Shown: positions 4,536-44,461 of the stretch, piece by piece | Position numbering within the stretch: the first letter of the stretch is position 1 | Layout of the letters: each line of letters begins with the position of its first letter | Source of the DNA: Balneola sp. | GTDB taxonomy: Bacteria; Bacteroidota; Rhodothermia; Balneolales; Balneolaceae | Length of the DNA: 64,000 nucleotides | Assembly: GCA_002694685.1 (NCBI GenBank) | Contig: NZMW01000012.1 | Span: 1 to 64,000, forward strand | Direction of reading: 5' to 3' | Notes under the pieces: generated by a model | The model's database searches: none | What the model was told of the DNA's origin: nothing | Seen by the model: the letters and a program-made list of their open reading frames with translations, nothing else | Translations under genes and position numbers: made by a program

Positions 4536-4546
4536 AATGGTTGTGT

Positions 4547-5419: not shown

Positions 5420-5643
5420 GATTTTTCAGTGTTGATTTATTTGTTAAAAAAAGGGGGGGGTAGTTGTAGGTTGTATGGAGTCAAACTATTCTATTATTAC
5501 TATATATTTTTTTTAGTAAAGTAGATACATAACTACCCACCCAAGGAGTAAAAACCTCCTTAAGGGTGTAATTGAGTATGATTTTGAGGGTGGGTAGTAC
5601 GCTCATAAAGTACCCACCCAACTCCCTTCATCTATCCCTTAAA
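5420..5643. promoter_or_regulatory. Structured intergenic region, possible replication origin or control site
   Basis: This gap in recoded block A holds CTACCCACCC (5533-5542) and its inverse GGGTGGGTAG (5588-5597). A hairpin is formed by GGGTGGGTA (5588-5596) and TACCCACCC (5611-5619), and a second by AAGGAG and CTCCTT (5544-5562). There is also an A7-G8 homopolymer at 5446-5460. It lies between helicase and primase genes, where satellites and plasmids often place an origin. That function is inference; it could also be a terminator or attenuator. Confidence 0.4.
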
Positions 5644-24733: not shown

Positions 24734-24808
24734 TCCTCGGTAGCTCAGTGGCAGAGCAGTTGACTGTTAATCAATTGGTCGTAGGTTCGAATCCTACCCG
24801 GGGAGCCA
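24734..24808 (+). tRNA. tRNA-Asn (anticodon GTT)
   Basis: The cloverleaf is complete: acceptor arms TCCTCGG and CCGGGGA, D-loop AGCTCAGTGGCAGAGC, anticodon loop CTGTTAA with GTT at 24766-24768, T-arm GTAGGTTCGAATCCTAC, and an encoded CCA. The 3' end of a serine recombinase gene on the opposite strand overlaps it, indicating that this tRNA is where the island at 24.8-45 kb attaches. Confidence 0.97.
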
Positions 24809-26562: not shown

Positions 26563-29295
26563 ATGGCATTAAGCTGGAATGAAATAAAGGATCGGGCACT
26601 GAAATTTTCCAAAGAATGGGAAGATGCTAAGAGTGAGCAATCGGATAAGCAAACCTTTTGGAATGACTTCTTTGATGTGTTTGGCATCAGCCGCAGGAGA
26701 GTAGCTACTTTCGAACAACAGGTGGAAAAGCTTGATAAAAATAAAGGTTTTATTGATTTATTCTGGCCCGGACAATTAGTGGCGGAACATAAATCTTTGG
26801 GGAAAAGTCTGGATAAAGCTTTTAAACAGGCCGTTGACTATACTTTTGGCTTAAGCGAACATGAAGTCCCCCGCTACATTATCACCTCTGATTTCCAGCA
26901 TTTTAAGTTTTATGATTTAGAAGAAGGCGATGAACAGGAATTTGAGCTCAAGGATTTCCATAAATACATCAAGCTGTTCGGGTTTATAGCAGGTTATCAA
27001 AAACGGGAGTTTAAAGAGCAGGACCCTGTAAACATTGAAGCTGCTGAACTCATGGGTAAGCTTCATGATGAGTTGCAAGAAAGTGGATACACCGGACATA
27101 ATCTTGAAATGTATTTGGTACGACTTCTTTTCTGTTTGTTTGCAGATGACACAGGAATTTTTGAACGTGACATATTTAAAGAATATATAGAGCTTAAAAC
27201 CAAAGAGGATGGCTCTGACCTTGGCAGTGCTCTCGCCCAGTTTTTCCAGGTACTGAATGAGCCGAAAGAAAGCCGGCTAAAAACTCTGGATGAACAGTTG
27301 AGGGCTTTTCCTTACGTAAATGGCAAATTGTTTGAAGAGGCCATTCCGATTGCTGCTTTTAATTCTGAAATGAGAAACATTATTCTGGAATGTAGTGGTC
27401 TTAACTGGGGAAAAATATCTCCGGCCATTTTTGGCTCATTGTTTCAGTCGGTTATGGACCCGGAACAGAGGAGAAACCTTGGAGCGCATTACACTTCTGA
27501 GAAAAATATCCAAAAGCTTATCAATCCCCTTTTCCTCGATGAACTGAAAGAAGAATTTGAGAAGGTAAAAGGAAACTCCAAAAAGCTTAAGGAGTTTCAT
27601 AAGAAACTAGCCGAGCTTACATTTTTAGATCCCGCTTGTGGATGTGGAAATTTTTTAGTGATTACTTACAGGGAGCTGCGCCTGCTGGAACTGGAAGTAT
27701 TAAAGGCATTATATAAGAACCAACAGGTTACAGCGATTGAGGCTATTGTAAATGTAGATGTGGACCAGTTTTATGGAATTGAATATGATGAATGGCCAGC
27801 CCGAATTGCCGAAGTAGCTTTATGGCTTATGGACCATCAAATGAACTTGGCTGTTTCTGAAGCTTTTGGTTTATACTATGCCCGACTTCCATTAAAAAAA
27901 TCTGCTACTATTGTATATGGAAATGCGTTGCGAATAAAGTGGGAAGATGTGATACCACAAGAGAAACTAAATTTTATTTTAGGTAATCCTCCATTTAGTG
28001 GTCACCATTACCAAAGTGAAGAACAAAAGGAGGATATGGATTTAGTTTTTAGAGGTAAGAAGGGTATAAAAGTTTTAGATTATGTCTCCTGTTGGTACAT
28101 GAAAACAGCACATTATTTAGAAGGTAAAAAGAATAAAAAAATTGTTGCAGCCTTTGTCTCTACAAATTCGATTGTACAAGGAGAACAAGTGGCATTGTTA
28201 TGGTCTGATCTTATTAAAAAGTATAATATAAAAATTCATTTTGCCCATCAGACTTTTAAATGGAGAAATGCAGCTAAAGGTGTAGCTGGAGTTCATGTGG
28301 TAATTGTTGGTTTTTCCAATTATGATGTCTCAACTAAAACTTTGTATGAATACAATGAGATTGATGGTGATCCTCTTTCCCGGAAAGTGAAAAACATAAA
28401 CCCTTATTTGATTGAAGGGCCGGACCTAATAATCTCTAATATGAGCAACCCAATTTGTGATGTACCAAGAATGATTTGGGGAAATAAACCAACGGATGGA
28501 GGTCATTTACTATTTTCCGATAAAAAAGAAAGAGATGAATTTTTACAGGTTGAACCCGCAGCTGAGCCATGGGTTCGCCCTTATATAAGTGGCCGTGACT
28601 TTCTTAATAATCATTATCGATATTGTCTGTGGTTGAAAGATATTAGTCCGTCTGAATTGAGAAAACTCCCACACGTATTAAAAAGAGTTAAAGCTGTAAA
28701 ACAAAGTCGGTTAAGTAGTAAAGCAGCCATTACAAGGAAAAAAGCGCAAACCCCAACACTTTTTGTCCAAATAGCTCAACCCGATACCAAGTATGTTGCA
28801 ATTCCTGAAGTTTCTTCAGAGAATAGAATTTATATACCTATGGCTTATATGCCCTCTAAGGTTATTGCAAGTAATAAAATTCAAATGGTTCCAAATGCAA
28901 GTTCATATGTGTTTGGAGTATTGACTTCTTTAATGCACATGGTATGGACAAAATCAGTTTGTGGGCGATTAGAATCACGAATTAGTTATTCAAACACTAT
29001 TGTCTACAATAATTTCCCCTGGCCTAGAGAACCCAGTACAAAAAATAAGAAGTTGGTAGAGAAGCGGGCACAAAAGGTAATAGACATTAGGGCGGAATTT
29101 AAAGACAGTAGTTTGGCAGATTTATACGACCCGTTAACTATGCCACCAAAATTGGTAAAAGCCCACCAAAAACTAGATAAAGCGGTAGATCTTTGCTACC
29201 GCCCACAACCCTTCACCACTGAAACCAATCGGATTGAGTTTCTCTTTGAACTGTATAAGGAATATACGGAGCCTTTATTGAATGGGAAGAAATAG
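26563..29295 (+). CDS. MmeI-like type IIG restriction-modification protein
   Basis: The 910-residue single polypeptide has the MmeI-family order. The N-terminal nuclease site D-x9-E-x-K is seen as D65, E75 and K77 (IDLFWPGQLVAEHK). A helical connector follows, then an N6-adenine methyltransferase with motif I FLDPACGCGNFL (about 354-365) and motif IV NPPFSG (about 475-480), then a target-recognition region (about 610-800) and a C-terminal domain. It would methylate one strand of an asymmetric target and cut at a distance. It starts the plus-strand defence run of the island, 130 bases from the recombinase start. Confidence 0.85.
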   Translation: MALSWNEIKDRALKFSKEWEDAKSEQSDKQTFWNDFFDVFGISRRRVATFEQQVEKLDKNKGFIDLFWPGQLVAEHKSLGKSLDKAFKQAVDYTFGLSEHEVPRYIITSDFQHFKFYDLEEGDEQEFELKDFHKYIKLFGFIAGYQKREFKEQDPVNIEAAELMGKLHDELQESGYTGHNLEMYLVRLLFCLFADDTGIFERDIFKEYIELKTKEDGSDLGSALAQFFQVLNEPKESRLKTLDEQLRAFPYVNGKLFEEAIPIAAFNSEMRNIILECSGLNWGKISPAIFGSLFQSVMDPEQRRNLGAHYTSEKNIQKLINPLFLDELKEEFEKVKGNSKKLKEFHKKLAELTFLDPACGCGNFLVITYRELRLLELEVLKALYKNQQVTAIEAIVNVDVDQFYGIEYDEWPARIAEVALWLMDHQMNLAVSEAFGLYYARLPLKKSATIVYGNALRIKWEDVIPQEKLNFILGNPPFSGHHYQSEEQKEDMDLVFRGKKGIKVLDYVSCWYMKTAHYLEGKKNKKIVAAFVSTNSIVQGEQVALLWSDLIKKYNIKIHFAHQTFKWRNAAKGVAGVHVVIVGFSNYDVSTKTLYEYNEIDGDPLSRKVKNINPYLIEGPDLIISNMSNPICDVPRMIWGNKPTDGGHLLFSDKKERDEFLQVEPAAEPWVRPYISGRDFLNNHYRYCLWLKDISPSELRKLPHVLKRVKAVKQSRLSSKAAITRKKAQTPTLFVQIAQPDTKYVAIPEVSSENRIYIPMAYMPSKVIASNKIQMVPNASSYVFGVLTSLMHMVWTKSVCGRLESRISYSNTIVYNNFPWPREPSTKNKKLVEKRAQKVIDIRAEFKDSSLADLYDPLTMPPKLVKAHQKLDKAVDLCYRPQPFTTETNRIEFLFELYKEYTEPLLNGKK

Positions 29296-29327
29296 TCTTA
29301 TAAATATCTTGAATAAATCGACCAATA

Positions 29328-31103
29328 ATGGAACAAGATAAATTCATTCAATTTTATATTAAAAATGCAAAACAAATTGGGTGGTTTCTTGGTGCTGGTG
29401 CATCTAGATCAGCTAATATGCCATCGGCTACCGATATAATTTGGGATTTGAAAAGGCAATATTATTGCCTCAAAGAAAAAAGAGATATCACAGATAATGA
29501 TTTAAGTAATAAAAGTGTGAAGGAGACTATACAAAATTACTTTAATTCTACAGGCGCTCCAGAATTATGGTCTGAGAATGAATACAGCTATTATTTTAAT
29601 TTGGTTCTTGGAAATGATAAGGAAATGCATCAAAGTTATCTGCAAGAAAAGTTGCATGAATCCAATATTTCACTCACTTCTGGCTCTAAAATACTTGCAT
29701 CTCTTATGGGACAGAATCTTGCAAGAATAGTTTATACAACTAATTTTGACCATGTTTTAGAAAATGCATTTTCATTCATAAATGAAAGAAGTCTACACGC
29801 TTTTAATTTAGAAGGTTCACATGCAGTTTTGAATGCATTAGTTAATGAAGAATATCCAATTTATGCCAAAATGCATGGCGACTTTAAATATACAAGTTTA
29901 AAAAACCTGCCTGACCAGTTAATAGAGAATGATCAAGAAATTGAGAAAAGCTTTATATCTGCATGTACTAGATTTGGCATGGTAGTATGTGGATATAGTG
30001 GACGAGATCAAAACGTGATGAACGCTTTTAATAAAGTTTTAGAAGAAACCAATCCTTTTCCAAAAGGAATTTATTGGACAAAACCAATTAATGGAAATTT
30101 GTTTTCAGGTGTTGAAACATTTTTAGAAAAAGCAAAAAAGAAAGGTGTCAATGCTCAAATAGTTGAAATTGAAACATTTGATTCGCTGTTGAGTCGAATT
30201 TGGAAGATTGTTGAAAATAAACCAAGTGAACATCACAGAAAAATACGTAAATCAATTTCTTCTAAACCAAATATTTCCAAATTTGATAATGGAAACTCCT
30301 ATCCATTGATTAGAACAAATTTATTTCCTATCAAATCACTTCCCAATCAAAGCGATTTGATTACTACGAATATAAAAATTTCAGTATCTGATTTTAGTCG
30401 CCGTTTAAGAGAAAAAAGCTCAGGAGCAATACTTACACATATAAACGAAAATGAGTTCTTAGCTTGGGGATCTAAGGAGGATTATTTTAAAATAATACCT
30501 GAGAAAGAAATAGCTTCCATAAAAAAAGAAAAGCTTGATAATTATTTAAATGATCTTTCAAAAAATTCACTTATAAAATCTTTTATTACAAGGGCTCTCA
30601 TTTATTCTTTATTAAACAATAAGCCTTTGGTATTAAAGCGTAGATTTGGAGATTACTATGCTGTAATTAGTAAAAAAAGCGATGGTTTTGAGGGAATAGA
30701 GTCAATACTTAGAAATTCCTTAAAGAGCTATAACTTTGAACAAAGAAAACACATACCTCCAAAACATATCGTTAAAAGAATCGCAAGAGGTATATTTTAT
30801 ATGGAATCAATTGAACTTTCACTGGAGTATTTTGATGAAATGTGTTGGTTGGCAATAAGACCTGATGTCTGGATTGAACCAAGTTCTAAGAGAAAAGACG
30901 TTACTGATTTTATTAGAAATATGAAGAAAAATAGATATAATAGCGTTCAAAATAGCTTGATTGATGCTTGGAAAAAAGTATTATTAGGTAATAACGATAC
31001 TGTCATTTTAAAATCATTTAATGATGAAGAGGAAATAAGCTGTAACCCTGAATTTGAAATTGTGACAACGACTGCCTATAGCAAAAGAATCAAAAATGCG
31101 TGA
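29328..31103 (+). CDS. SIR2-APAZ effector of a SPARSA defence system
   Basis: The 591-residue protein has an N-terminal SIR2 NADase domain: GAGAS at residues 22-26, TTNFDHVLE near 136-144, and KMHGDF near 187. The C-terminal half (about 300-591) is the size and position of the APAZ domain that pairs with short Argonautes. In characterised SPARSA systems (for example from Geobacter sulfurreducens) guide-directed recognition of invading DNA by the Argonaute activates SIR2 to deplete NAD and abort infection. The gene overlaps the Argonaute gene by eight bases. It ends in TGA, so this pair uses the standard code. Confidence 0.88.
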   Translation: MEQDKFIQFYIKNAKQIGWFLGAGASRSANMPSATDIIWDLKRQYYCLKEKRDITDNDLSNKSVKETIQNYFNSTGAPELWSENEYSYYFNLVLGNDKEMHQSYLQEKLHESNISLTSGSKILASLMGQNLARIVYTTNFDHVLENAFSFINERSLHAFNLEGSHAVLNALVNEEYPIYAKMHGDFKYTSLKNLPDQLIENDQEIEKSFISACTRFGMVVCGYSGRDQNVMNAFNKVLEETNPFPKGIYWTKPINGNLFSGVETFLEKAKKKGVNAQIVEIETFDSLLSRIWKIVENKPSEHHRKIRKSISSKPNISKFDNGNSYPLIRTNLFPIKSLPNQSDLITTNIKISVSDFSRRLREKSSGAILTHINENEFLAWGSKEDYFKIIPEKEIASIKKEKLDNYLNDLSKNSLIKSFITRALIYSLLNNKPLVLKRRFGDYYAVISKKSDGFEGIESILRNSLKSYNFEQRKHIPPKHIVKRIARGIFYMESIELSLEYFDEMCWLAIRPDVWIEPSSKRKDVTDFIRNMKKNRYNSVQNSLIDAWKKVLLGNNDTVILKSFNDEEEISCNPEFEIVTTTAYSKRIKNA

Positions 31104-32493
31104 ATTATCAACATTATCTGGCCACAAAAGAATTAATGAGCCTAGCTTAATATTTGCAAATAACAAGAGAGACATTCATCCTTTAAGAGGGTTATGTGAG
31201 CATGGACCATTTAGTAAATCGTTAAATTACCTGCAAGATATTCAGGTAGCGATTATTTCTCCTTTCAAAAGCAATTTTAAATTGATCAATTTAATTGGCG
31301 AGTTAAATAAATCCGCCAGTCCAAAAATTGCTCCTGATTACTATCCAGAATATCCTGGCTTTGAAAACTTATTTGAGACTAAACTTTTAACTCCTAAGTC
31401 AGACCTTACAATTGAATTACCACAGGAAGCTAATCAATTTGCTCAATCGGGTGATTACAAGACCATTACAAAATATTTATTACACGCAATATCAAAATTA
31501 GTAGCCCATAAATCTAGTATTAGTGTCGTATTTATATACTTGCCTTCCAGTTGGGAAAAATGCTTTACTGACGAGAACTTTGATCTTCATGATCAATTAA
31601 AAGCCAAAGCCGCACCTCTAGGTATTCCTATACAAATAATTAATGACAATTCAATTCAAACAAAATGTAGAGCAAATGTAATGTGGGGATTAAGTGTAGC
31701 CATTTATTCCAAAGCGGGAGGAGTTCCTTGGAAAGTCGAGGCCTTAAATGAAGACCATGCCTATATTGGTCTAAGCTATGCAATGAAAACCAGTAAAGAA
31801 GATGGCACTCAATACACTACATGTTGTAGTCAAGTATATGATCCCGAGGGTACTGGATTTGAATTCATAGCATTTGATACTCATGAGTTCACTCAAGATA
31901 GACAGAGAAACCCTTATCTTACTTACAATGAAATGCATGCGGTCATGTCTCAAAGTCTAAAAATTTACCAAGATAATCATGGTGGGAATATACCTAACAA
32001 AATAACAGTCCATAAAACTACACCTTTTACAGATCAGGAAATCGAAGGTTGTTATGATGCTTTTGGTCAAAATACTGAAGTTGAATTGTTACAAATAGTA
32101 AGACATCCTAAAATAAAAGGAGTGCGCTTTGACAATAAAAAGGCTGCAAATTATCCTTGTAAGCGAGGTAGTTATTTCCCAATAAGCAAAAATGAATGCT
32201 TGTTATGGATACAAGGTACTCTCGAAGGAATTACTAAAAGTGGAAAAGAGCTTTTTAAAGAAGGGGGACTAAAACCCATGCCTAAACCAGTTTTATTAAG
32301 AAGATTCTCAGGGGACGGAGGTTGGCATGAAACATGCTCAAGTATAGTAGGTTTGAGCAAAATGGATTGGAACAATAATACGATTTATAAATCAATGCCT
32401 GTTACTATTGTTTATTCAAAATTATTTGCATCTGTTGTTAAGAATGTTCCAGATATCAATAAAAGAATTTATGATTATAGATTTTTTATGTAA
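31096..32493 (+). CDS. Short prokaryotic Argonaute (MID-PIWI)
   Basis: The 465-residue length matches short pAgos, which lack N and PAZ domains. A MID-like region (about 150-215, with IPIQIINDNSIQTKCRANVMWGLSVAIYSKAGGVPW) leads into a PIWI fold (about 215-465) with VHKTTPF-like and (F/Y)-x-x-FDTHEF segments. A complete DEDX catalytic tetrad is not apparent, as expected of catalytically inactive short pAgos. It would load a small guide and recruit the SIR2-APAZ partner, to which it is translationally coupled. A terminator follows at 32551. Confidence 0.85.
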   Translation: MRELSTLSGHKRINEPSLIFANNKRDIHPLRGLCEHGPFSKSLNYLQDIQVAIISPFKSNFKLINLIGELNKSASPKIAPDYYPEYPGFENLFETKLLTPKSDLTIELPQEANQFAQSGDYKTITKYLLHAISKLVAHKSSISVVFIYLPSSWEKCFTDENFDLHDQLKAKAAPLGIPIQIINDNSIQTKCRANVMWGLSVAIYSKAGGVPWKVEALNEDHAYIGLSYAMKTSKEDGTQYTTCCSQVYDPEGTGFEFIAFDTHEFTQDRQRNPYLTYNEMHAVMSQSLKIYQDNHGGNIPNKITVHKTTPFTDQEIEGCYDAFGQNTEVELLQIVRHPKIKGVRFDNKKAANYPCKRGSYFPISKNECLLWIQGTLEGITKSGKELFKEGGLKPMPKPVLLRRFSGDGGWHETCSSIVGLSKMDWNNNTIYKSMPVTIVYSKLFASVVKNVPDINKRIYDYRFFM

Positions 32494-32584: not shown

Positions 32585-33100
32585 TCAGGAAGCCCCATTC
32601 ATTTCCGCAGCATACTCCTCCGGCTCTTTATAATTCTCCCGCTCTACTACTCGGGTATAATCACCAGATGCTTTAAGGTCGTAGAAGACGACCTTGTTAT
32701 TTTTCTTCCGGGGAAGGATGGTTTCGATGTTGGCAAATGTTTTGCCGTGCTCCTCGGATTCGTTATGACTGATAAACAGCGTGGCATTCAGACCTATGAA
32801 GGCCTCCATGTCTACTCCGCTTTCCAACTCATCTCCAGAGAACTTAGAACCGCGCCATCTTTCGAGGTCCTTGCGAAGATTGGACTTCTCGTTGAGAGAC
32901 CACGTATATCGTTTGGTAACGATGAAGTGCTTTCCCTCGGAGTCGGTGTCCTCCAGTTCGAAGACGAGAGACAATTTGTGTTTTGGTCCCCAAGGAGTGT
33001 CCAGCTCGCCTAGATCTACCACATCCACAAGGAGGGCATCCAAAAGGCCGTCGGGCGCAAGGGGGTATTCGATTTTTTCTTCTTTTATAATTAGTGCCAT
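32585..33100 (-). CDS. Phage-type DNA-binding/recombination accessory protein (DUF669-like)
   Basis: The 171-residue protein is beta-rich and acidic at the end and resembles the small proteins that accompany YqaJ nucleases in phage recombination modules, perhaps a single-strand DNA-binding protein; this is from size, context and the pattern VFELEDTDSEGKHFIVTKRYTWSLNEKS-like region. Three Trp are TGG. It stops at TGA, but two codons later comes TAA, so under TGA=Trp it would only gain Trp-Ala. It lies 11 bases downstream of the nuclease gene. Confidence 0.6.
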   Translation of the reverse strand: MALIIKEEKIEYPLAPDGLLDALLVDVVDLGELDTPWGPKHKLSLVFELEDTDSEGKHFIVTKRYTWSLNEKSNLRKDLERWRGSKFSGDELESGVDMEAFIGLNATLFISHNESEEHGKTFANIETILPRKKNNKVVFYDLKASGDYTRVVERENYKEPEEYAAEMNGAS

Positions 33101-33111
33101 GATTATTGGGT

Positions 33112-34047
33112 TTAAGTGTTAATGGTAAAACGTCGGGTTGTGGTTTCCTTTAGAAACTCCTTGTAGAGCTGCGGGTGCTCTTTCTTGAAAGTTGTGGTAT
33201 TGAACCGGCGTTGGGTAGAGTTCTTCCAGCTTAAGAGCCTCCGGCCAGCTAATGTCATATGCTCCGCATTGCCCAGTTCTTCTTTGAGCAAATGCTCAAG
33301 GGATTCCTTATGGGTTTTATACTCATTCAGGCGGTCTCTTACTTTCTGGAGCTGCTGGAAGTAGGCATAGAGCTTAGGGTTGGCCTCTACGGTTTCTCCT
33401 TCTTTCGCGTCCGGGTAGAGTATGAGCAGATCTTCATCCGTCATTGCATCCGGTGGTACATCTGCAATCACATGATCTTCCCACCATTCAATCACCTTTT
33501 GGGTGTTGATGGCGATCAGCTCTTCGTTGCGTTCGATGTATATCGGGTCGTGAAAGTAGCCGGTGTCCCTTTCTAGAATCATTAAATATCCATAGGAGTA
33601 GCCTGTCAGCATGAGGTAATGCATCAGCTGAAAATGCCAGCTAATAGGGTACTCGTTAGGCTCATTGCGTAAACGGAACGAATTTGTAGTCTTGATTTCG
33701 AGCACACCTGGCCCCGGATGCTTGTCGGAGCTTACGATCTGCCGGTCGATATTACCCCTCAGAAATGGATATTCCGGATGCTCATAGGGCTCAGAAATGT
33801 TGCGGACTTTCAGCCCGGTTATTTCGGTGAATTTTTCCGCGCAGACGGGCTCTAGTATATGCCCCATCTCTGTGATGGGCGTGGAGCCTTGAGGCTCTCT
33901 ACGACCGGTTTTCAGCAGCCAGAGTTGAAAGGGTGTCTGGTAGGGAGACTTACCAAGTGCTGCTGCAACTTCGCTTCCGCCCAGGTATTCTTGTCGGGCA
34001 TCTACCCACTCTTGGGTGGGAATGTTATCTAATAGTTTCATAGACAT
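33112..34047 (-). CDS. YqaJ-like viral recombinase/exonuclease
   Basis: ATG 34047 is preferred (311 residues) because a longer frame would overlap the upstream terminator. The motif order fits YqaJ/lambda-exonuclease-type nucleases: GGSEVAAALGKSPYQTPFQLW (about 22-42), a Glu in EMGHILEPV, NIDR, then the catalytic LEIKTT (about 117-122) and a Gln in the following helix. It would resect double-strand ends to feed an annealase during phage or plasmid recombination. No annealase is recognised beside it apart from the small protein downstream. Confidence 0.85.
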   Translation of the reverse strand: MSMKLLDNIPTQEWVDARQEYLGGSEVAAALGKSPYQTPFQLWLLKTGRREPQGSTPITEMGHILEPVCAEKFTEITGLKVRNISEPYEHPEYPFLRGNIDRQIVSSDKHPGPGVLEIKTTNSFRLRNEPNEYPISWHFQLMHYLMLTGYSYGYLMILERDTGYFHDPIYIERNEELIAINTQKVIEWWEDHVIADVPPDAMTDEDLLILYPDAKEGETVEANPKLYAYFQQLQKVRDRLNEYKTHKESLEHLLKEELGNAEHMTLAGRRLLSWKNSTQRRFNTTTFKKEHPQLYKEFLKETTTRRFTINT

Positions 34048-34078
34048 AGTATTGGTTGTTTTAAGGGTTGGTAGTAAT

Positions 34079-34108
34079 AAAAAAGCCCACCGGTTATCCG
34101 GCAGGCTT
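34079..34108 (-). terminator. Terminator on the minus strand
   Basis: Read on the minus strand, AAGCCTGCCGG and CCGGTGGGCTT flank an ATAA loop and are followed by T6. It overlaps the end of the small gene at 34094. Confidence 0.7.
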
Positions 34109-34231
34109 GTGGTTTGATTCGTATTGTGGTGGAGGAGGCGGGTCATCCGGATCATCTCCCAAGAGCCAAAGCTTCAGGCCTTGCTTGATGGATTCGGTGA
34201 CGGCTTCTATGAGTTCTGTTTTCGTACTCAT
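34094..34231 (-). CDS. Small protein with a proline run, 45 aa
   Basis: ATG 34231 gives 45 residues: an amphipathic helix (TELIEAVTESIKQGLKLWLLG) followed by DDPDDPPPPPQ. It ends in TAA within a terminator stem. It is a plausible phage-type small gene between the DUF932-like and YqaJ genes, but no family is recognised; a longer start at 34288 is possible. Confidence 0.4.
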   Translation of the reverse strand: MSTKTELIEAVTESIKQGLKLWLLGDDPDDPPPPPQYESNHKPAG

Positions 34232-34291
34232 GGTGCCGGTCCTCGCATTATGATTACTATTATCTTTACGACGAGTTTTGATAGACACATA

Positions 34292-35035
34292 TTAGTTCAG
34301 ATATATATTTTTAGTGAGGGTATGAAGCTTATTATGGCGCTGGATGATCTGATGAACCGGTGAGCTTTTTAAAGCTTCGGTTACACAGTTGTATCCTGCC
34401 CATAAAGTGTCCTCTGTAAATTCCTGGTGAGAGGGTTTCCAGAGTTCTTTAAAAGCAGCTGTTGATTGTGTAGCTGAGAGCACACCTTCACCAGTAAGTC
34501 GACCTATGAACTCGTACTTCTGATCTTGGCTCATGGGACGGCTTTTCATGGCCTGCACGTCTTCCTGTATTTGGTGGAAGTTATGCTGGCTTTTATAGAC
34601 TGCCGTAACAATCTGATCATGGAGATCTTCATGCATGTCGTCCCCTTGGTGCTTCCGCATGACTTTGATATCGCCAGAAAAGACCAGGTTATCACACACC
34701 AAAACGGTGCTTCCGATAACTAGCCCGGCAGACATTGATTTGTCGTAACTATTACGCAGGCCGATAGCGACCTTAAGGTCTTCGTCAGCATTGGGATTGA
34801 TTTTGAGGTAGGTAATGACTCCGAACATCTTTTGCCCATCAGAGCTGAGGGCATAGCTGTCTCCATCAAACCGGTATCCTTTGAGAATATCAGAGGCTAC
34901 GGTATAGACATTAAGGGCAAAATCGTAATGATTAAGCGGAGTATAGGTGTTGGTTTTCTGTGGCTCTGGGATAGTTAAGAGCTGCTCGAGGGAACAGTGT
35001 TTGGAGCCGCATTGGGTGAGTAGTTGATTGGTCAT
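34292..35035 (-). CDS. DUF932/DUF945-like phage-plasmid protein
   Basis: ATG 35035 gives 247 residues. The core region (about 60-130, DGDSYALSSDGQKMFGVITYLKI and VAIGLRNSYDKSMSAGLVIGSTVLVCDNLVF) matches the DUF932 pattern found on plasmids, phages and ICEs. Its biochemical role is unknown; such genes sit in early or replication-linked modules. It lies between two minus-strand terminators, so it is probably transcribed separately. Trp is TGG and the stop TAA. Confidence 0.75.
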   Translation of the reverse strand: MTNQLLTQCGSKHCSLEQLLTIPEPQKTNTYTPLNHYDFALNVYTVASDILKGYRFDGDSYALSSDGQKMFGVITYLKINPNADEDLKVAIGLRNSYDKSMSAGLVIGSTVLVCDNLVFSGDIKVMRKHQGDDMHEDLHDQIVTAVYKSQHNFHQIQEDVQAMKSRPMSQDQKYEFIGRLTGEGVLSATQSTAAFKELWKPSHQEFTEDTLWAGYNCVTEALKSSPVHQIIQRHNKLHTLTKNIYLN

Positions 35036-35082
35036 TGGTCTTGGATTAAGAATTAGTGTTTTGTTAACACTATTCTTATACC

Positions 35083-35111
35083 AAAAAAGGCAGAGCATTT
35101 AGCTCTGCCTC
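35083..35111 (-). terminator. Terminator on the minus strand
   Basis: GGCAGAGC and GCTCTGCC form a perfect stem around ATTTA. On the minus strand it is followed by T6, 30 bases after the stop of the 35140-35448 gene. Confidence 0.85.
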
Positions 35112-36368: not shown

Positions 36369-36815
36369 ATGCAAGCAACCGTAGCAGAAGTATCTTTAAG
36401 ATACTCCTCCCAGAAGTCCTATGACGAGATGCCAACAATAACCTCACCAGAGGAAGCAGCCGAGTTTCTTCGTGGAATTTTCGACCCCGACACAATTGAA
36501 CTTAGAGAAGAGTTTTTTGTCGTACTTCTTAGCAATACCAAGCAAGTACTTGGCTATAGTAAGATCTCGATTGGGACGATGACCGGTACCTTAGTTCAAC
36601 CCATAACGGTTTTCCAAACAGCTATTCTTGGGAACGCCCACAGTATTTTGATCTCACATTCACACCCCTCAGGGTGCTTGAGGGCTTCAAATTCAGACAT
36701 CAATCTCAGTAAAAGGATTAGAGATGCTGGAAAATTTTTGGGGATTGACTTGGTGGATCACATTATCCTGACTAAAGAATCCTACACGTCCATGAAGGAG
36801 CTTGGACTGTTTTAA
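36369..36815 (+). CDS. RadC-like JAB/MPN domain protein
   Basis: The 148-residue protein is a bare JAB domain of the RadC type: EEFFVVLLSNTKQVLGYSKIS (about 46-66), the zinc-binding motif HSHPSGCLRAS (about 96-106) and a downstream Asp. RadC-like genes are common on ICEs, plasmids and phages, where they are annotated as DNA repair proteins with no proven mechanism. It is the only plus-strand gene in the phage-like segment and has its own terminator. Confidence 0.88.
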   Translation: MQATVAEVSLRYSSQKSYDEMPTITSPEEAAEFLRGIFDPDTIELREEFFVVLLSNTKQVLGYSKISIGTMTGTLVQPITVFQTAILGNAHSILISHSHPSGCLRASNSDINLSKRIRDAGKFLGIDLVDHIILTKESYTSMKELGLF

Positions 36816-37056: not shown

Positions 37057-37305
37057 TTAATTAGAAATGTGCTTTCAGTAATACTCTCAGGTAGTCATCA
37101 CCTGCACATAATGCCGGTCTTCGAAATGCCCGTCTTGATACATGATCTGAAACAAGCTGCTCAGACTATCTACTTGTGGAAATTCTGCCAGCCACTCTGC
37201 TATTTCACGATTGTAGGTTCATTTAGCATCCGGATTATTCTTAATCCAGAGTAAAAATTCGCTTTCGTTTCTTGTCATTTTCTTTGCTTTATTATTAGAG
37301 CTCAT
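37057..37305 (-). CDS. TGA-recoded small protein (82 aa with TGA=Trp)
   Basis: ATG 37305 to TAA 37057 is one open frame if TGA is Trp: codons at 37219-37221 (residue 29), 37087-37089 (73) and 37075-37077 (77); two more Trp are TGG. In standard code the product would be a 28-residue stub. An internal Met at residue 10 is an alternative start. The protein is helical, with WTYNREIAEWLAEFP (about 29-43) resembling a HTH-type DNA-binding segment. Its start overlaps the stop of the upstream recoded gene, and a GAGGAA ribosome site precedes it. Function unknown, probably element control. Confidence 0.85.
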
Positions 37306-37648
37306 TATATGATTCCTCTTTCTTGTTATTAGTTTCTAGGGCAGCACCGGGTTCGGTGTCATTCCCTGCGTTATTGTTATTTGTAAAGCTTAGTGTTTTG
37401 AAGTCATCAGGGCTTAATTTTCCTGATGACACAGCTTTTTGAATGTTGGGGGCTTTTTCAGCCGGCCGTATTCATTCAAACTTTGTAGCCATATAGTGAA
37501 TTACCCACGGTGACACGCCAAAATGCGAGGCTGTCTTTCGTATTCCGTGTTCATATCAGAATTCAAACACCTGCTGTTTTCCATGAACTTCTATAAGTTT
37601 GTTCATCCATCCGCGTGGCCCGGTATGTATGTCATTAATTTTAATCAT
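37295..37648 (-). CDS. TGA-recoded HTH-like protein (117 aa with TGA=Trp)
   Basis: With TGA as Trp at 37556-37558 (residue 31) and 37472-37474 (residue 59) the gene is open from ATG 37648 to TAA 37295. Two further Trp are TGG. AGGAGA lies seven bases upstream of the ATG. Residues about 36-58 (IRKTASHFGVSPWVIHYMATK) look like a helix-turn-helix. The segment W-IRPAEKAPNIQKAVSSGK-x-x-PDDF corresponds to W-KRPIEF...LQKAIDSGKxxPEEF in the recoded protein at 4134-4535, so both blocks carry this family. The C-terminal 35 residues are Asn/Glu-rich and disordered-looking. Confidence 0.88.
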
Positions 37649-37667
37649 TTATTTCTCCTGTATTTTA

Positions 37668-37764
37668 GGTGGGAGGTAAGTCAAATTCAGCCCAAACTTT
37701 GCAAAAATTCTTTTCTAAAAAGTCTTTTTGGGTTTTTTTAGTCTAAAATGGACTACCTCCAACC
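37668..37764. promoter_or_regulatory. Inverted repeat downstream of the recoded primase-helicase
   Basis: GGTGGGAGGTAAGTC (37668-37682) is mirrored by GACTACCTCCAACC (37751-37764) with small mismatches. In block A a similar GGGTGGGTA palindrome occupies the same place, just 3' of the helicase gene. A replication origin, regulator site or attenuator are possible. Confidence 0.4.
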
Positions 37765-37771
37765 TGATTGG

Positions 37772-39817
37772 TTAGTTATTATTTAAAAGCTGCATTCTAT
37801 GACTATTTGCTTCTTTTTTTGCAATGTTATAGACCTTTATGTTTTGTGGATTTTTGTAGGTGAACCCATGCCTCTGAAGCAGTTTACCCAGATACGATAC
37901 CGAGGATGCTTTTGGCAGTAACTTCCGTTCCATCATGTGATTCATCAACTCCGTGGATGTCCATTGTAGCAACGAATGCTTGGGTGTAGTATCATCAGCT
38001 GGCCCGAAGTTTCGAAGCAGGATTTCTTCCAGAGCGGTCACTTGTCTGAACCTATTATTGTGAAGGTTTATGCGGTCAATATCTGCCCCATCAAACCAGT
38101 ACTTTTCTCCAGCCTTGTATAATCCATACGCCTCGGCCATGACTTGATCCATATCGATTTCGTTTTGATAATCAATATGTGTGACTTCATGGATAAGGAA
38201 TCTTCGGGACCCGGTTGTGTCGGTAAGAATTTGGGGATCGTTGACGGATCCGGTAAAGCTGGCCCGGCGAACAAGGGATTCTGGATCACGGCGGTACGCT
38301 TTACGCACCTTTATTTTCCCTTTTGTAATCACCTCTTTTAGTGCGCTTTCTTTCCCTTTATTCAGGGAGGCTAATTCGTCCAGATTTATGATCAAACACT
38401 CACTTAAGTACACCATCGTGTCTTTATTAGATGGATCCAGTTCACCTGGATAGGTATACTCTTTTAAAGGTTCGGGAAGAAGATTCGAATTTCAGGTACT
38501 CTTACCCATTCCTTGTTTACCTTCAAATACAAGTACACTATGGTTGCTTATTTTTTCTTCTATCCCACAAGCAATCATGGCTATCAGCCACCGTTGAAAC
38601 GTCCATTCCCAATAGGCTTTATCCGTTGTTTGCACGGTATCCATGAGTTTTTGTAGCTCTTTCGTGCCGGTTACAGAAGGCAGGCTAGTAAAGTACTCCT
38701 TGAAGGGATCAAAGGTAGGGCAGAAGTCGGAATCCAGTATTACATGAAGAAACTGTTCTCCGCAACTCCCCTTAGAATTCTTAATATGCCTTAGAATACT
38801 TGCAAAGGCTCGCCGGTCGATTATTTTCCACTCGGCTTTACCTCGCTTGTGGTACTCTTTTCGTCCTAATACTACGTTATAGCGGAAGTCGTAGTGATAC
38901 CCCAGAAAAGATTCGGTTTCATTTTTACCGCGTATAAACCGCCCTTCGAGTGCTTTTTCAATGGTCATCTGCCCATACGTAGCTCCATCTAATCGATGTG
39001 ATGTATCTCACTTCGCTCGGAATAGTTTACCTGACCGGAATATGCGGTCTATCTGCTCCTCATTAAATCCGGCGTAGTAGGATATGAAATGCACCAGCTT
39101 CAGGTCAGCCCGCGACTGATCGCCTTCATAGCTGGAGGTATCCCCATAAACGTATAATCGCCGGAACTCCGGGCCATGCTGGTCGTCTTCCAGTAATTTG
39201 GTTATGACCCACTGATCGTTATCGGTTAGTACTACTGCGCCCTTAATTCCCGAAAGGGTAGTGGTCGCCGTAGAACCTCCCAATTGCTGATAAAAGCTCC
39301 AGAATCCATCAGAAAGGTCCTTGACTGGTTTAGCCTCCCCGTATAACGCCTCGCCGGTAATGGTTAAGTAGCGGCCATTGTCATACACTTCTACTCCTTT
39401 GGCTCCGGCGATGTCATTGCGTCGGTTTTTAATGCCTTCAGCAATAGCACCCTTGGCGATAATACGAATGCCCTTCCCGGATGGAGATATTTCCCCGTAA
39501 GAGTCGATTTCTTGTATCAGGGCCTCGATGTCTTTGGACAACTCGCCGTCACCAGAAATACAATAATCGAAATCAAAGCCTACGATTCCGTCATCACCCG
39601 ATAGTACATACCCAATACCGGAATACGTGGATGATTGTTTTTCGTAATGGGCTTTAACTGCCTGGAAAGAGGTTCAGGTTGCAGAGTCGCTAACCTTGGC
39701 AGGAGAGCCGTTTATTTGGAAAGGAATTTTGGTGGGTTTCCCGCCACGTTCGGCGAGCTTTCAGAGTACCCACTGGTCTCTGTCTTGTAGTGTCGTTGGA
39801 ATATGTACTCATTTCAT
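37772..39817 (-). CDS. TGA-recoded primase-helicase fusion (681 aa)
   Basis: With TGA as Trp the gene is open from ATG 39817 (AGGAGA upstream) to TAA 37772. TGA codons lie at 39809-39811 (residue 3), 39761-39763 (19), 39674-39676 (48), 39008-39010 (270) and 38492-38494 (442); nine more Trp are TGG. The N-terminal half is a primase-polymerase-type domain: WVLWKLAERGGKPTKIPF (16-33), metal-binding GFDFDY, SPSGKGIRII and VEVYDNGRYLTITGE. The C-terminal half is a VapE-type helicase with P-loop GKQGMGKST (about 433-441) and LIINLDEL. A Trp at residue 442, right after the P-loop, is Phe in the block A homologue. In standard code it would shatter into four or more pieces, initiating codon 1 and stopping at codon 3. 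Confidence 0.95.
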
Positions 39818-40055: not shown

Positions 40056-42305
40056 TTATTCCAGAAAACTCTTTGGAACCAGGTAGCAACTAGTATTTCC
40101 CTTTTCAGGCAAATAAAGATCTTTACGTTCAATATTGAAATAGTCGGCCAATAAACGATTAAAAATCTGCTTTCCCGAAGATGACTTACTTAAGCTACTC
40201 ATGAATTTCTTGATTTTCGCGTCTTCCAATACATGTTCAGCTTCATAGACAAGGTGACGGGGTTCATTCGCGGTCTTCACAGGTTCTGTAGAACTAAAGT
40301 AAGAGTGAAGCATAGCGAATAATTTTTTCTCCCTTTCATCTTGGAAGGCAGCCTGTTGATTCCAGCATATATCTAAGCCTTTAAGGAGGGAGGTTTTTAT
40401 GGTTTCATCATCCAGGAATTCTGCAAAGGCCAGGAGAGGTCTGGATAGTTCTAATTGTCTGTTATTCAAGCTTGATTTCGAAACGGGAAGGGTAATATTT
40501 TCAAAAGAACTAAGAGACAGATTAAAAATTTGTTCTGCGTTATGTATTCCTATTGCGTAACAAGAAACTTCAAAGAGCTGCATAGAGGACAATATTTGTT
40601 GGTCAAATTCTAAAAATTGATCTTTATCAATATGATCGGGCTTTTTGAAGGTCTGTAATGGGATGGTTCGCGACTTCAATGTTTCCAGCTCTATATTTCC
40701 GGTTCCACCAAAAATTTTCGGGCAGTATGTAGAGTAGGTTGTACTTTTAGTGCCCGCCCGCTTAGTTACCGAGCCCCTATAATTGTAACCGCCGTTGAGG
40801 AACTTTGATAACTCGTCGTGTGATTTACGTGATGATGAGTAGTCTTCAAATTCATCTACACATAACGTACTTCCATGTACGTGGGCTTGTTCGATAAGGG
40901 TAGATGGCGTTGCTTTTGTTAAAAAGAACCCGTTAAAAGCGAGCTTAGAGACGATATCTAATACGGTGGTTTTTCCGGTGCCTTTTTCCCCTGCTAAGTG
41001 AATGTATGGGTAGGCATTAAATATACGGTAGAAATAGGAGCAAATGATCCAGGTAGTTAGAATATCATAGTATGCGTCTTTCCTGAAGTAGATAAACTGC
41101 TTCAAAAAAGATCGTATCTGCGTATATAACACGGGGGGAGATAGGTAATCATTATTACGAATTTTTTCCAGATACGTATTGGAAAGGGGAGATTCAATAA
41201 CCTGAACATGATTGGGAGTCATTCCTTCCATGTTCTCTACATGATCTCTTGGAAACAAGCGAGAGGGGTTAGTAAATAGGATGTCATTAGATTCGGTGGA
41301 GTAGATCATGGACATATTTTTAAAGTCCTGAGCCGGGTGAAAATACATGGTGAAATCTTCAGAAATCCCATCGTTATACACGCTTTGGGAGGGTATATCG
41401 CTGGCATACACACGCATCGAATATTCATCGAGTACGTTGCCAATATCGGATGGGGTATTCTCATGTACCCAGTCTGGCAGGCTCTTATTTTTAAGGGCAT
41501 TTCGGAGATTTATTTTATAGAGCTCACCCCCGTTATTAAGCATGGTAACCACAAATGGATACATGGAGAACGCATAGTTTTTTCCGTAACTACCTAAACA
41601 CAGATAAATCTTTTTGTCGGCTAATAATTTAGGGTAGTCATAATGCTTTAACTCAGATTCAGAGGGCATGCTAATAGCTGTTATATCCCGACTATTTAGG
41701 TAATCTGCGATAAGCGGATTGTCTACTACTAGCACCTGCTCTGTTTTCTCGCTAAAAAGCCTTTTATCCAACCTGAACACACCTCTGCTGTCCCAACTAC
41801 TACGTTCTCCCGAAATAGCATAGTCTTTTAAAGCAACAGAGTGGCCGGCTGGAGATAGGCAATGATATCTAAGGATATTGAGATGAGGCAGCCATTCAAC
41901 TCGTATGGAATTAAACGTGTAGTCAAAAGAAAACGAGTGGAGATGATCTTTTAATTCGGAGGTAGTGGAAGGCTTTGAAAGGACATCAAGCTTAGCAGCC
42001 CCGTATAGGTTTGATTCAAAGGAAAAAGCCTGCTGAGCACCAAAATCAGTGTCTATGTTGTACATCAACGTATAAAGCTGACTAAATTCACCCTTCTTCT
42101 TTTTGGGTCCAAACTGTACACTTAAATCACTTTCAACCTGTATAGGCACGAGTTTCCCGTTCCAAGTAGGAACTTCAAATGTTAGAGGAAAGTTTTCATC
42201 CTGAAACTCGGTAATTGAAAATTGTGGTACGTTCAATTCAAGAGCCAGTATTTTATGCTGTTTGAATCTGGAACTGTCTAAATTTAATGTGTCTGCCTTC
42301 TTCAT
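40056..42305 (-). CDS. Large P-loop ATPase/helicase-like protein, 749 aa
   Basis: The 749-residue protein has a C-terminal ATPase core with Walker A GEKGTGKTT (about 437-445), Walker B-like TLCVDEFED, and a later FGGTGNIELETLKSRTIPL segment like the sensor and arginine-finger part of DUF927/primase-helicase-type proteins. The N-terminal 380 residues are unassigned. All Trp are TGG and the stop is TAA. Its ATG overlaps the stop of the upstream AAA+ gene as ATGA, so the two are translationally coupled. It could be a DNA-remodelling component of a replication or defence module. Confidence 0.7.
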   Translation of the reverse strand: MKKADTLNLDSSRFKQHKILALELNVPQFSITEFQDENFPLTFEVPTWNGKLVPIQVESDLSVQFGPKKKKGEFSQLYTLMYNIDTDFGAQQAFSFESNLYGAAKLDVLSKPSTTSELKDHLHSFSFDYTFNSIRVEWLPHLNILRYHCLSPAGHSVALKDYAISGERSSWDSRGVFRLDKRLFSEKTEQVLVVDNPLIADYLNSRDITAISMPSESELKHYDYPKLLADKKIYLCLGSYGKNYAFSMYPFVVTMLNNGGELYKINLRNALKNKSLPDWVHENTPSDIGNVLDEYSMRVYASDIPSQSVYNDGISEDFTMYFHPAQDFKNMSMIYSTESNDILFTNPSRLFPRDHVENMEGMTPNHVQVIESPLSNTYLEKIRNNDYLSPPVLYTQIRSFLKQFIYFRKDAYYDILTTWIICSYFYRIFNAYPYIHLAGEKGTGKTTVLDIVSKLAFNGFFLTKATPSTLIEQAHVHGSTLCVDEFEDYSSSRKSHDELSKFLNGGYNYRGSVTKRAGTKSTTYSTYCPKIFGGTGNIELETLKSRTIPLQTFKKPDHIDKDQFLEFDQQILSSMQLFEVSCYAIGIHNAEQIFNLSLSSFENITLPVSKSSLNNRQLELSRPLLAFAEFLDDETIKTSLLKGLDICWNQQAAFQDEREKKLFAMLHSYFSSTEPVKTANEPRHLVYEAEHVLEDAKIKKFMSSLSKSSSGKQIFNRLLADYFNIERKDLYLPEKGNTSCYLVPKSFLE

Positions 42306-44461
42306 TGCGCTATAATAGTTTTAAAAAGATTAAGGTCAGCTTTGTCACCGGTGTTAGTATGAAGGACTAATTGACGTGTTGCCATATTAAAAATTCGCGC
42401 AATATCAGTTTGAGCTAACGCCTTTTTACTGGCGGTTGCTGAACTCCTATCGTGGATTAATTCAGTAAGGCTCTCAATATCTTTTGCTTTAAGGGTATGA
42501 GGGATCTCTTCAAGCTTCTTTTCTACAATAAGCTTTATTTGATCTAAGTCAGGGGGAGCGACTTCAAATTGTTGGGTTAATCTGCCTGGACGAAGTAGGG
42601 CCGGGTCAACGGCATCACGTCGGTTGGTAGCACCAATCACTATTACGTTATCGTTATTGCTTCCACTGTCGATCTCATTTAAGAGTGCGTATAGACTATT
42701 GTTCTCAATTGAATGGGAGGTTTGGTCTCTACTAGTAGCTATACTATCAATCTCATCAAAGAATAAAAGTATTGGCCGGAAAAGACGGGCTTGTTCAAAC
42801 AAAGACCTAATATTTGCCCCCGATTCTCCAGAGTATTTCGAGACCAGTTCATTACTGTTTATTACCTTAAACAGTACCCCAAGTTCATTTGCTATTGCAT
42901 TAGCTATGCTGGTTTTTCCGGTTCCAGGGGGGCCATAAAGCAGAAAGCCTTGATCGGGATTATAATTCAAGTCTTTTCGAAAGGTGTCTGGGTTAAGTAA
43001 AAATGAAATTTCTTGACAAATGGCATCAATAACGCCTTCTGAGCCAGGTAAATCGGATTTTTTTAGGGTAGGTTTTTTGATATCCATTTCAGTGTGGCAT
43101 AAAGGAAGGATCGTTTCTTTTGCTTGCCTGATATGAGCCTTTTCTAGGATTACCGAGGTCTTTAGGTCAAGAGCTTTTATTCGGGCAAAGCTATGTGCTT
43201 TTTTGACAAGTGTATTGAGGTCACCACCGACATAACCAGCGCATTCGTAAGCTATTTCGTTAACAAAGGCATCTGTAATACCACGTAGTTCAACACCGGT
43301 TTCTTGGATCTTCTGCCTTAAAATTTGAGCTCGACCTGTTTTATCTGGTGGATATACGGGAATTTTTGTATCAAACCGACCTGATCTGATTACGGCGGAG
43401 TCTAAGTCAGAAATATAATTAGTTGCAGCAATGACAAGAACATGAGATGGGATATTTTTTGGATCCAGAAGTTGTAGCAGATTATTTATTTCTTCTCTGT
43501 CATGTTTATCAGATCGTTCAGATCTTTTTCCTGCGTAGGAGTCAAATTCATCCAAAAAGATAAGGGCTCCATTTTTTTCCTTGGCAGCTTTATTGAAGGC
43601 GATAGTGAGATTTTTTGAAAACTGATGAATATAGGGAGATGCCAATTCACCAATCATTACAGGGCTAAATTTAATCTTAAGATCTTTCGCAACGGCATGA
43701 GCAAGTTCTGTTTTACCAGTTCCAGGTGGGCCATAAAGAAGTACTCCTCCGGTATGGATAGGATTTGTATTCTGTCCATTTAATTGCTGTATAAAAGGGA
43801 AGATCACCTCTTTTTTAAGCCGGTCTATTACCTCATCGATACCTTTTAGTTTGTGTAAGTTGCTAAAAGAAACCTTCGCAATTTGCTGCTTACTATTGGC
43901 AGATGAGCCACTTTCTAGCGGGTCACCATTTTCTTCAACATGATCATTCATTTGAGATACCGTTATGCTTTTTCCGTCAGTATCACCTTTGTCCAAAGAT
44001 CGATCAATAATTGTGTCGCTGGTGGCAATGGCAATCTTGTTGCCCTTGCCAATGGTTGTAATCTGATAAATATGGTCGTCTTTAAATCGAATGTATTTAT
44101 TCGAGAAAAGCACGGACTTATCTTCAATGACACTCTGTATTGGAGGTATGTGCTTCGTTACTTCTTCTCTTACCCGAGCAATGGTAATCGATCGTGCAAA
44201 TTCAGGTTCAATTACAGTACAGATAGCATGATCAGAGGTAATGATATAAAGGGATTTCCACTCGGAAGGAAGAACGAGTTTAGAGCTTCCATGAAAGCTG
44301 GCGGGTACTGGAATCAGCCGATCAGAGAGTACCGTATTATCTGGAAATTCAAGTTGTAAGATTTTTCCATATTCTGATCCGAGATACTTAATAAGTCTTG
44401 GAGGAGAACCAATGCCATCGATGTCTGGATCGAAATCTACTTGTAATCGTATGTTTTGCAT
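42302..44461 (-). CDS. Tandem AAA+ ATPase (Cdc48/VCP-like architecture), 719 aa
   Basis: The 719-residue protein has an N-terminal beta-rich region (1-190) and two AAA+ modules. D1 has Walker A GPPGTGKTE (about 244-252), Walker B ALIFLDEFDS and IRSGRFD. D2 has Walker A GPPGTGKTS (about 508-516), Walker B LLFFDEIDS and LLRPGRL. This is the order of Cdc48/p97-type unfoldases, unusual on a bacterial mobile island. It would unfold or remodel protein complexes. It stops at TGA within an ATGA overlap with the next gene, so this operon follows the standard code although recoded block B starts only 240 bases beyond the downstream gene. Confidence 0.82.
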   Translation of the reverse strand: MQNIRLQVDFDPDIDGIGSPPRLIKYLGSEYGKILQLEFPDNTVLSDRLIPVPASFHGSSKLVLPSEWKSLYIITSDHAICTVIEPEFARSITIARVREEVTKHIPPIQSVIEDKSVLFSNKYIRFKDDHIYQITTIGKGNKIAIATSDTIIDRSLDKGDTDGKSITVSQMNDHVEENGDPLESGSSANSKQQIAKVSFSNLHKLKGIDEVIDRLKKEVIFPFIQQLNGQNTNPIHTGGVLLYGPPGTGKTELAHAVAKDLKIKFSPVMIGELASPYIHQFSKNLTIAFNKAAKEKNGALIFLDEFDSYAGKRSERSDKHDREEINNLLQLLDPKNIPSHVLVIAATNYISDLDSAVIRSGRFDTKIPVYPPDKTGRAQILRQKIQETGVELRGITDAFVNEIAYECAGYVGGDLNTLVKKAHSFARIKALDLKTSVILEKAHIRQAKETILPLCHTEMDIKKPTLKKSDLPGSEGVIDAICQEISFLLNPDTFRKDLNYNPDQGFLLYGPPGTGKTSIANAIANELGVLFKVINSNELVSKYSGESGANIRSLFEQARLFRPILLFFDEIDSIATSRDQTSHSIENNSLYALLNEIDSGSNNDNVIVIGATNRRDAVDPALLRPGRLTQQFEVAPPDLDQIKLIVEKKLEEIPHTLKAKDIESLTELIHDRSSATASKKALAQTDIARIFNMATRQLVLHTNTGDKADLNLFKTIIAQ

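Follow-up and report, generated by a model that had tools for sequence, protein, structure and literature searches.

A replication operon with in-frame UGA codons, very probably read as tryptophan, in otherwise standard-coded genomic islands of Balneolales

Certain genomic islands of Balneolales carry a replication operon in which the reading frames stay open only when UGA stands for tryptophan (Trp), and which is surrounded by genes using the standard genetic code. The operon described here lies in the first 64 kb (hereafter, the window, i.e., the whole stretch of DNA analysed) of a contig of 181,729 bases (C12) from the Balneola genome G000, which has 3.95 Mb in 17 contigs and is 99.7% complete. 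We are highly confident that UGA is decoded as Trp when the operon works, and consider it probable that this decoding is conditional and supplied in trans; whether the supplier is a phage tRNA appears evenly balanced. The reading towards which we lean slightly is that of a satellite-like island, with an operon whose translation would await the arrival of a UGA-reading Trp-tRNA, most likely one that is phage-borne.

The operon, here called Block B, occupies positions 37057-39817 on the reverse strand and comprises three genes, each of which has an open frame only with UGA read, i.e., in table-4 translation. The first (37772-39817, reverse strand, ending in TAA) encodes a fused primase-helicase of 681 amino acids, made up of an NrS-1-type Prim-Pol with an HBD domain and a VapE-like helicase; five of its Trp codons are TGA (codons 3, 19, 48, 270 and 442) and nine are TGG. 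The second (37295-37648, reverse strand) encodes a helix-turn-helix-like (HTH-like) protein of 117 amino acids, with TGA at codons 31 and 59 and TGG at codons 14 and 48. The third (37057-37305, reverse strand) encodes a protein of 82 amino acids, with TGA at codons 29, 73 and 77 and two further Trp codons that are TGG. Thus, 10 of the 23 Trp codons of Block B are TGA. A first-pass annotation of this DNA had reported three genes open only with TGA as Trp, containing five, two and three TGA codons, with TGA as the third codon of the primase-helicase; the table-4 reading and our recount agree with it on every one of these points. The same annotation had given each gene a Shine-Dalgarno sequence, the last two genes an overlap, and the operon a terminator after its final TAA. 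By eye, AGGAG-like ribosome sites precede each ATG; the HTH-like and 82-residue genes overlap by 11 bases; and a terminator-like hairpin of 12 pairs with a T-rich tail (37046-37018, reverse strand) lies past the last TAA, on the 3′ side of the operon. The terminator scan returned six terminator-like sites, compared with 3.4 expected, so that this hairpin is to be taken as a consensus match only.

When the full 681-residue product was compared with protein families, it matched the VapE-like (2.4e-38) and NrS-1 HBD (5.5e-17) families of Pfam and primase/helicase families of PHROG over both halves. Its closest solved relatives include the NrS-1 phage primase (PDB 7rr3) and, for the helicase half, a VapE-like staphylococcal protein (7pds), which we take to be a SaPI protein. 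Since the full product matches these families, and since its relatives in other genomes are open only under the same reading, the reading of Block B is not due to chance; homology searching, which the first-pass annotation had proposed as a check, thus bears out its view of an independent TGA=Trp operon, with homology across the UGAs and relatives read in the same way. For the HTH-like and 82-residue products, neither Pfam nor PHROG gave a family match; their genes are supported by relatives in other islands, those of the 82-residue protein being restricted to the sister islands of G008, G397 and UBA2664. An AlphaFold model of the HTH-like protein has a mean pLDDT of 68.4, with a helical core (residues 11-60) at block pLDDT values of 84-90 that is predicted to hold a helix-turn-helix-like pair. 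A fold search with this model against the PDB gave no significant match, and the HTH profile matched no solved structure.

The island that holds Block B has a large serine recombinase (24745-26433, reverse strand), the 3′ end of which overlaps a tRNA-Asn gene (24734-24808). A large serine recombinase overlaps tRNA-Asn likewise in G018, and the islands of G008 and G004 have tyrosine integrases instead. Next to the recombinase is defence cargo on the forward strand (26563-32493): an MmeI-type IIG restriction-modification enzyme, a SIR2-type Argonaute partner and a class I (short) Argonaute, the SIR2-APAZ partner and the short pAgo being matched by PADLOC at 1.6e-165 and 1.9e-181, respectively. 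Then follow, on the reverse strand (32585-35098), standard-coded genes for a 171-residue protein, a YqaJ-type exonuclease (33112-34155) and a DUF932 protein (34292-35098), and a standard-coded RadC-like gene on the forward strand (36369-36815). Beyond Block B are two further standard-coded genes on the reverse strand that serve as island markers. One encodes a 749-residue protein (40056-42305), with no TGA and with weak primase/helicase-like PHROG matches; the other encodes a double AAA ATPase (42302-44461) and has TGA as its stop codon. In PADLOC, this ATPase strongly matches those of the IetA type; it adjoins the 749-residue gene wherever that was seen, and could be part of a defence pair. 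As in elements of the PICI type, integrase and replication module occur together in an integrated island. No phage structural genes were found among the island proteins scanned (a subset of the open reading frames). A search for a second copy of the tRNA end, which would have marked the right boundary of the island, gave none. The tRNA-Asn gene looks like a hotspot for islands, as the G005 sequence past its tRNA-Asn matches contig C12 at 89.5-91.6 kb and part of the start of tRNA-Asn is repeated about 100 bases upstream in G018 (L007:3684-3883). In G061 a reverse transcriptase gene (L009:13489-14577) lies a few kb from the UGA-coded operon.

A second UGA-coded replication operon, Block A, is present in the same window (3610-6903, reverse strand), with primase and helicase encoded by separate genes. 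All of its genes lie on the reverse strand and encode a helicase (5644-6903, three TGA codons), a BT4734/PriCT-2 primase (4547-5419, one TGA), an HTH protein (4134-4535, two TGA) and a protein of 177 residues (3610-4143, three TGA). A close relative of Block A is found in G005, with 68-79% identity. By our own count, there are 11 UGA-coded loci in 10 Balneolales genomes: two in G000 and one each in G018, G061, G008, G005, G397, G043, G004, G444 and G449, the last being on the same contig as UBA2664 and counted with it as one locus. The host spread is given as three families (f1 and f3 of the genome set, with G449 in f1). A search with the primase-helicase found matches in 5 of 96 related genomes, all with between one and five TGA codons. 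Across 394 genomes of the phylum, the HTH profile matched in 10: six in Balneolaceae, at seven places with two or three TGA each, and four outside it, where the matches were weak, had no TGA and in one case had TAA. Scanning named genomes brought up four loci; TGA was present in three of them and absent from the fourth, which is in a Flavobacteriaceae record. Five relatives from viral contigs do not have the UGA habit; a single TGA was seen in V74, near the end of the frame.

The UGA habit is not tied to one replicase. The replicases of G043, G004 and G444 are a different protein of about 830 residues, with four, five and one TGA codons, respectively, and are unrelated to the primase-helicase by tblastn. 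Thus, two unrelated replicase types with in-frame UGAs occupy the same position beside the HTH gene. The standard-coded 749-residue marker, chosen without regard to TGA, allowed a blind test: it was found in 7 of 124 Balneolales genomes, six of these genomes were already known to hold UGA-coded loci, and in the seventh, G444, the replicase likewise contains a UGA. This replicase has exactly one TGA, at codon 51, its nine remaining Trp codons being TGG; the codon for the same Trp is likewise TGA in G004 and G043, and because the part upstream of the TGA is homologous too, a mistaken start codon does not account for it. The gene pair of YqaJ and the 171-residue protein was also tried as an island marker and was rejected as such. 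It occurs at 22 places in 19 of 124 genomes, and of the 14 further stretches one (G449) holds a UGA-coded operon. The other 13 show no operon relative with TGA, an absence that is weak for four of them, which were seen at only 6-12 kb. Two of these further loci are in G000 itself (C2:6301-26300 and C3:70301-90300; L309 and L310). Both are standard-coded, and no UGA-coded operon was found within the stretches seen; one has a phage-type integrase and one a replicase-like protein with DUF5906. YqaJ/171-residue loci that lack a UGA-coded operon, including the two in G000, indicate that the UGA habit belongs to the operon, and not to the host or to the markers.

That UGA stands for Trp is indicated, first, by the residues found at the sites concerned. 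In the profile match to the NrS-1 primase, W48 and W270 are opposite Trp, and by eye W19 is too. An alignment of the helicase family, comprising eight island proteins and five relatives without the UGA habit, has 17 columns with an island UGA; one of these (206) sits in an N-terminal extension of the G005 protein that is probably not coding. At 10 of the 17 columns another island has TGG, and at 7 of the 17 Trp occurs in one or more of the five relatives, with varied residues in the others. The first-pass annotation had held that other residues at its ten sites in close relatives would speak against its reading. Among the islands this was not seen, another island having TGG at 10 of the 17 columns; in distant relatives some columns do have other residues, which is as expected of variable sites.

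The second indication is the way in which the two codons exchange. Over seven operon families, homologous Trp codon pairs were identical (TGA/TGA or TGG/TGG) in 160 cases and mixed in 119; control pairs for Lys, Glu and Gln were identical in 808 cases and mixed in 603, the odds ratio between the two sets being 1.00 (pairs in either set are not independent). Judged by these pairs, TGA and TGG interchange as synonyms in the operons, in keeping with the claim of the first-pass annotation that the code had been fully adopted and that Block B was not a case of sporadic readthrough. The 29 operon genes contain 88 TGA and 98 TGG codons.

The third indication is purifying selection. For six gene pairs (Block A compared with G005, and G004 with G043; these are other loci of the type, Block B having no partner that is close enough), pN/pS was 0.18-0.31 over the whole gene and 0.18-0.30 past the first UGA. 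Selection downstream of the UGA opposes the notion that the native products are short peptides, an outcome that the first-pass annotation had named as one that would refute it. It also bears on two other explanations. One is that the UGAs arose by pseudogene decay, G-to-A hypermutation or assembly error, given that TGG becomes TGA by one transition; we consider this very improbable, as 28 operon genes are free of internal TAA and TAG codons, and the pattern recurs at 11 loci in 10 assemblies with purifying selection downstream. (The coordinates of three of the 28 genes, i.e., the HTH genes of G018 and UBA2664 and the G043 replicase, begin at a non-start codon, seemingly without effect on the Trp counts.) The other is that the hosts acquired the operon from code-4 phages and now carry it as a functionless relic. 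Such replicases are indeed common in phages, 704 phage records matching replicases of this kind, but purifying selection, the conserved layout of the operon and the sharing of the habit by two unrelated replicases make a relic improbable, as does the fact that the phage relatives examined do not have the UGA habit.

Patterns in the positions of the UGAs within the genes were also considered. A fixed UGA at two Trp sites of the HTH family was rejected, as in G043 and G004 these two codons are TGG and a different pair of Trp codons is TGA. Site-by-site conservation of UGA was set aside as a general rule, since over all families TGA and TGG exchange as freely as other two-fold codons; when the Block A pair is taken by itself, agreement is seen at 13 of 15 Trp codons, compared with 65 of 106 controls (P = 0.08). 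The presence of at least one TGA in every operon gene is unsurprising by itself (P = 0.39). Of 28 genes, 24 have TGA as their first Trp codon, compared with 16.6 expected (P = 0.0007); with near copies dropped, this becomes 14 of 18 (P = 0.013) and, with G444 added, 15 of 19 (P = 0.004). The ratio of TGA to TGG is 33 to 15 in the first 60 codons and 31 to 67 later. The same 5′ preference for A-ending codons is seen for Lys (18 of 19, with 12.1 expected) and Glu (17 of 19, with 12.0 expected) and is lacking for Gln; for these three amino acids together, A-ending and other codons number 155 and 78 in the first 60 codons and 671 and 517 later. The N-terminal excess of TGA is thus, at least in part, a reflection of a wider tendency to use A-ending codons near the 5′ end, and an N-terminal UGA lock is possible, as the effect is larger for Trp than for the controls.

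Outside the operons, UGA behaves as a stop codon. Aligned copies of 13 neighbouring island genes, 45 in all, contain 194 TGG codons and no in-frame TGA; compared with the 88 TGA and 98 TGG of the operon genes, this gives a Fisher probability of 4e-34, which is overstated since the genes are related. In the stretches fetched, TGA is the stop codon of 68 of the 293 long open reading frames outside the operons. The gene for RF2 (prfB) is present in G000, and the replicase-like gene at one of the two YqaJ/171-residue loci of G000 is standard-coded; this gene, together with the loci in G000 that lack a UGA-coded operon, shows that the host does not impose the code.

What, then, could read UGA? Of the 40 tRNA matches in G000, 39 have an anticodon assigned by ARAGORN, none of which is UCA, and the sole Trp-tRNA has the anticodon CCA. 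It could be argued that the island or the host encodes a UGA-reading tRNA that has escaped recognition and is switched on at induction, making the island self-sufficient like a recoded prophage. Suppressor tRNAs can indeed be too divergent to detect, as described for zeta crAss-like phages (PMC12386605), so that a strongly divergent UCA tRNA could have escaped the searches; moreover, the weakest of the 40 matches in G000 has no ARAGORN call and no anticodon assigned, and a loose UCA pattern matched in 76 of 92 genomes of the family. However, at none of 30 such loci that were checked did ARAGORN call a tRNA, and no UCA tRNA was found by ARAGORN at any of the 11 loci, within the stretches analysed, or by Rfam in the islands. 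Our own cloverleaf scan, which recovers the known Asn and Trp tRNAs, gave three weak hits in the island stretches (G444 excluded), compared with three in the reversed sequence. Strict UCA-tRNA patterns matched in none of eight island genomes and, among 128 Balneolales genomes including all 10 with islands, matched once, at a site that is not a tRNA. We therefore regard a tRNA of the island's or host's own as unlikely.

An equally unlikely explanation is that the CCA Trp-tRNA of the host itself reads UGA under some state, such as RF2 shortage, stress or tRNA modification, with no need for a foreign tRNA. The host does have such a tRNA, and in E. coli UGA is read by a CCA Trp-tRNA whose anticodon stem has 4 bp (PMC13092985). 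In contrast, the anticodon stem of the host tRNA-Trp is, by eye, 5 bp in length; five UGAs per gene demand high efficiency at each of them; and RF2 is present, nearby frames often end in TGA, and no in-frame TGA interrupts the neighbouring genes. With no UCA tRNA found in island or host and with standard-coded neighbours, conditional recoding of one operon, rather than an element-wide code, describes the situation best.

Conditional decoding supplied from outside follows from these observations in the following way. With five in-frame UGAs in one gene, leaky reading cannot make the product. The free exchange of TGA and TGG implies that UGA is read well when the operon is used, and the absence of TGA from every neighbour implies that UGA is mostly not read; the simplest way to reconcile the two is a switch that needs a UGA-reading Trp-tRNA. 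Neither island nor host yielded such a tRNA, so an external source is to be expected. Conditional decoding, a phage as supplier and the status of the island as a satellite are all inferences. In the resting cell, with RF2 present and the CCA Trp-tRNA the only one found, UGA would be a stop, so that only two codons of the first gene would be translated. A UGA-reading Trp-tRNA would then enter, the likeliest source being a phage that infects the cell or resides in it, whereupon the primase-helicase, HTH-like and 82-residue proteins would be made in full and the island would replicate. The difference in code would act as a translational AND-gate tying replication of the island to another element; for a satellite, such a tie to a tRNA-bearing phage would make sense. 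More tentatively, and with somewhat less than even confidence, such islands may be satellites that use the genetic code as a sensor, being silent in the lysogenic state and answering only to phages that shift the code. They would then be code-gated parasites of recoded phages, with defence cargo to act against the helper.

Phage contigs with Trp-like UCA tRNAs do exist: ARAGORN called UCA tRNAs in 10 viral contigs among 80 of 102 stretches and, in a second search, in 6 of 31. No UCA-tRNA viral contig was tied to Balneolales, nor was a helper phage of Balneolales found. One phage contig with a Trp-like UCA tRNA (IMGVR_UViG_3300021254_000224; L239) has several long frames that are open only with TGA read, its TGA coding being judged from these open frames; a nearby RNA-ligase-like frame has no TGA. 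In another (IMGVR_UViG_3300019487_000022; L234), the genes look standard-coded. Searching the viral contigs with YqaJ as bait gave no relative, and with the 749-residue marker gave one distant relative (L271). The terminase family PF03237 is present in 5 of 92 genomes of the family, in no case with an internal stop, and was not found in G000.

Should a helper be shown, this would be a new kind of satellite control. A regulatory role for recoding becomes directly testable in these islands, in which recoding has been kept in a single operon of otherwise standard-coded elements across at least two unrelated replicases. Since standard annotation fragments UGA-coded replicases, such elements may be overlooked. 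In the titles and opening lines of abstracts that the literature searches returned, mostly outside subscription journals, we found no description of a UGA-coded island or satellite or of recoding in Balneola. New with respect to known recoding is that it affects the replication operon of islands in which no suppressor tRNA was found, across unrelated replicases.

Of the known systems, the nearest in coding are the phages and prophages of genetic code 4, in which TGA is Trp; recoded prophages occur in standard-code hosts (PMC10746230 and PMC12386605). Recoding has been proposed to time gene expression in phages (PMC10746230), and the reason for it has been called an open question (PMC11210395). 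Like the island, these elements use TGA as Trp in a standard-code host with only some genes affected. They differ, as described, in bringing a suppressor tRNA, none being found in the island, and in having late structural or lysis genes recoded, whereas in the island it is the replication operon (PMC10746230, PMC12386605). Furthermore, unlike in recoded phages, none of the island proteins that were scanned is structural. The island is also similar to PICIs and SaPIs, in being integrated and in having a recombinase, a primase/helicase module and defence cargo, and its helicase half matches 7pds. Control in PICIs is transcriptional; for the island, no packaging gene among the proteins scanned and no helper phage came to light. 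Finally, the replicase resembles the primase-polymerase of NrS-1, with matches to both the Prim-Pol and HBD domains, and the island replicase has UGA codons at sites, such as W48 and W270, where NrS-1 has Trp.
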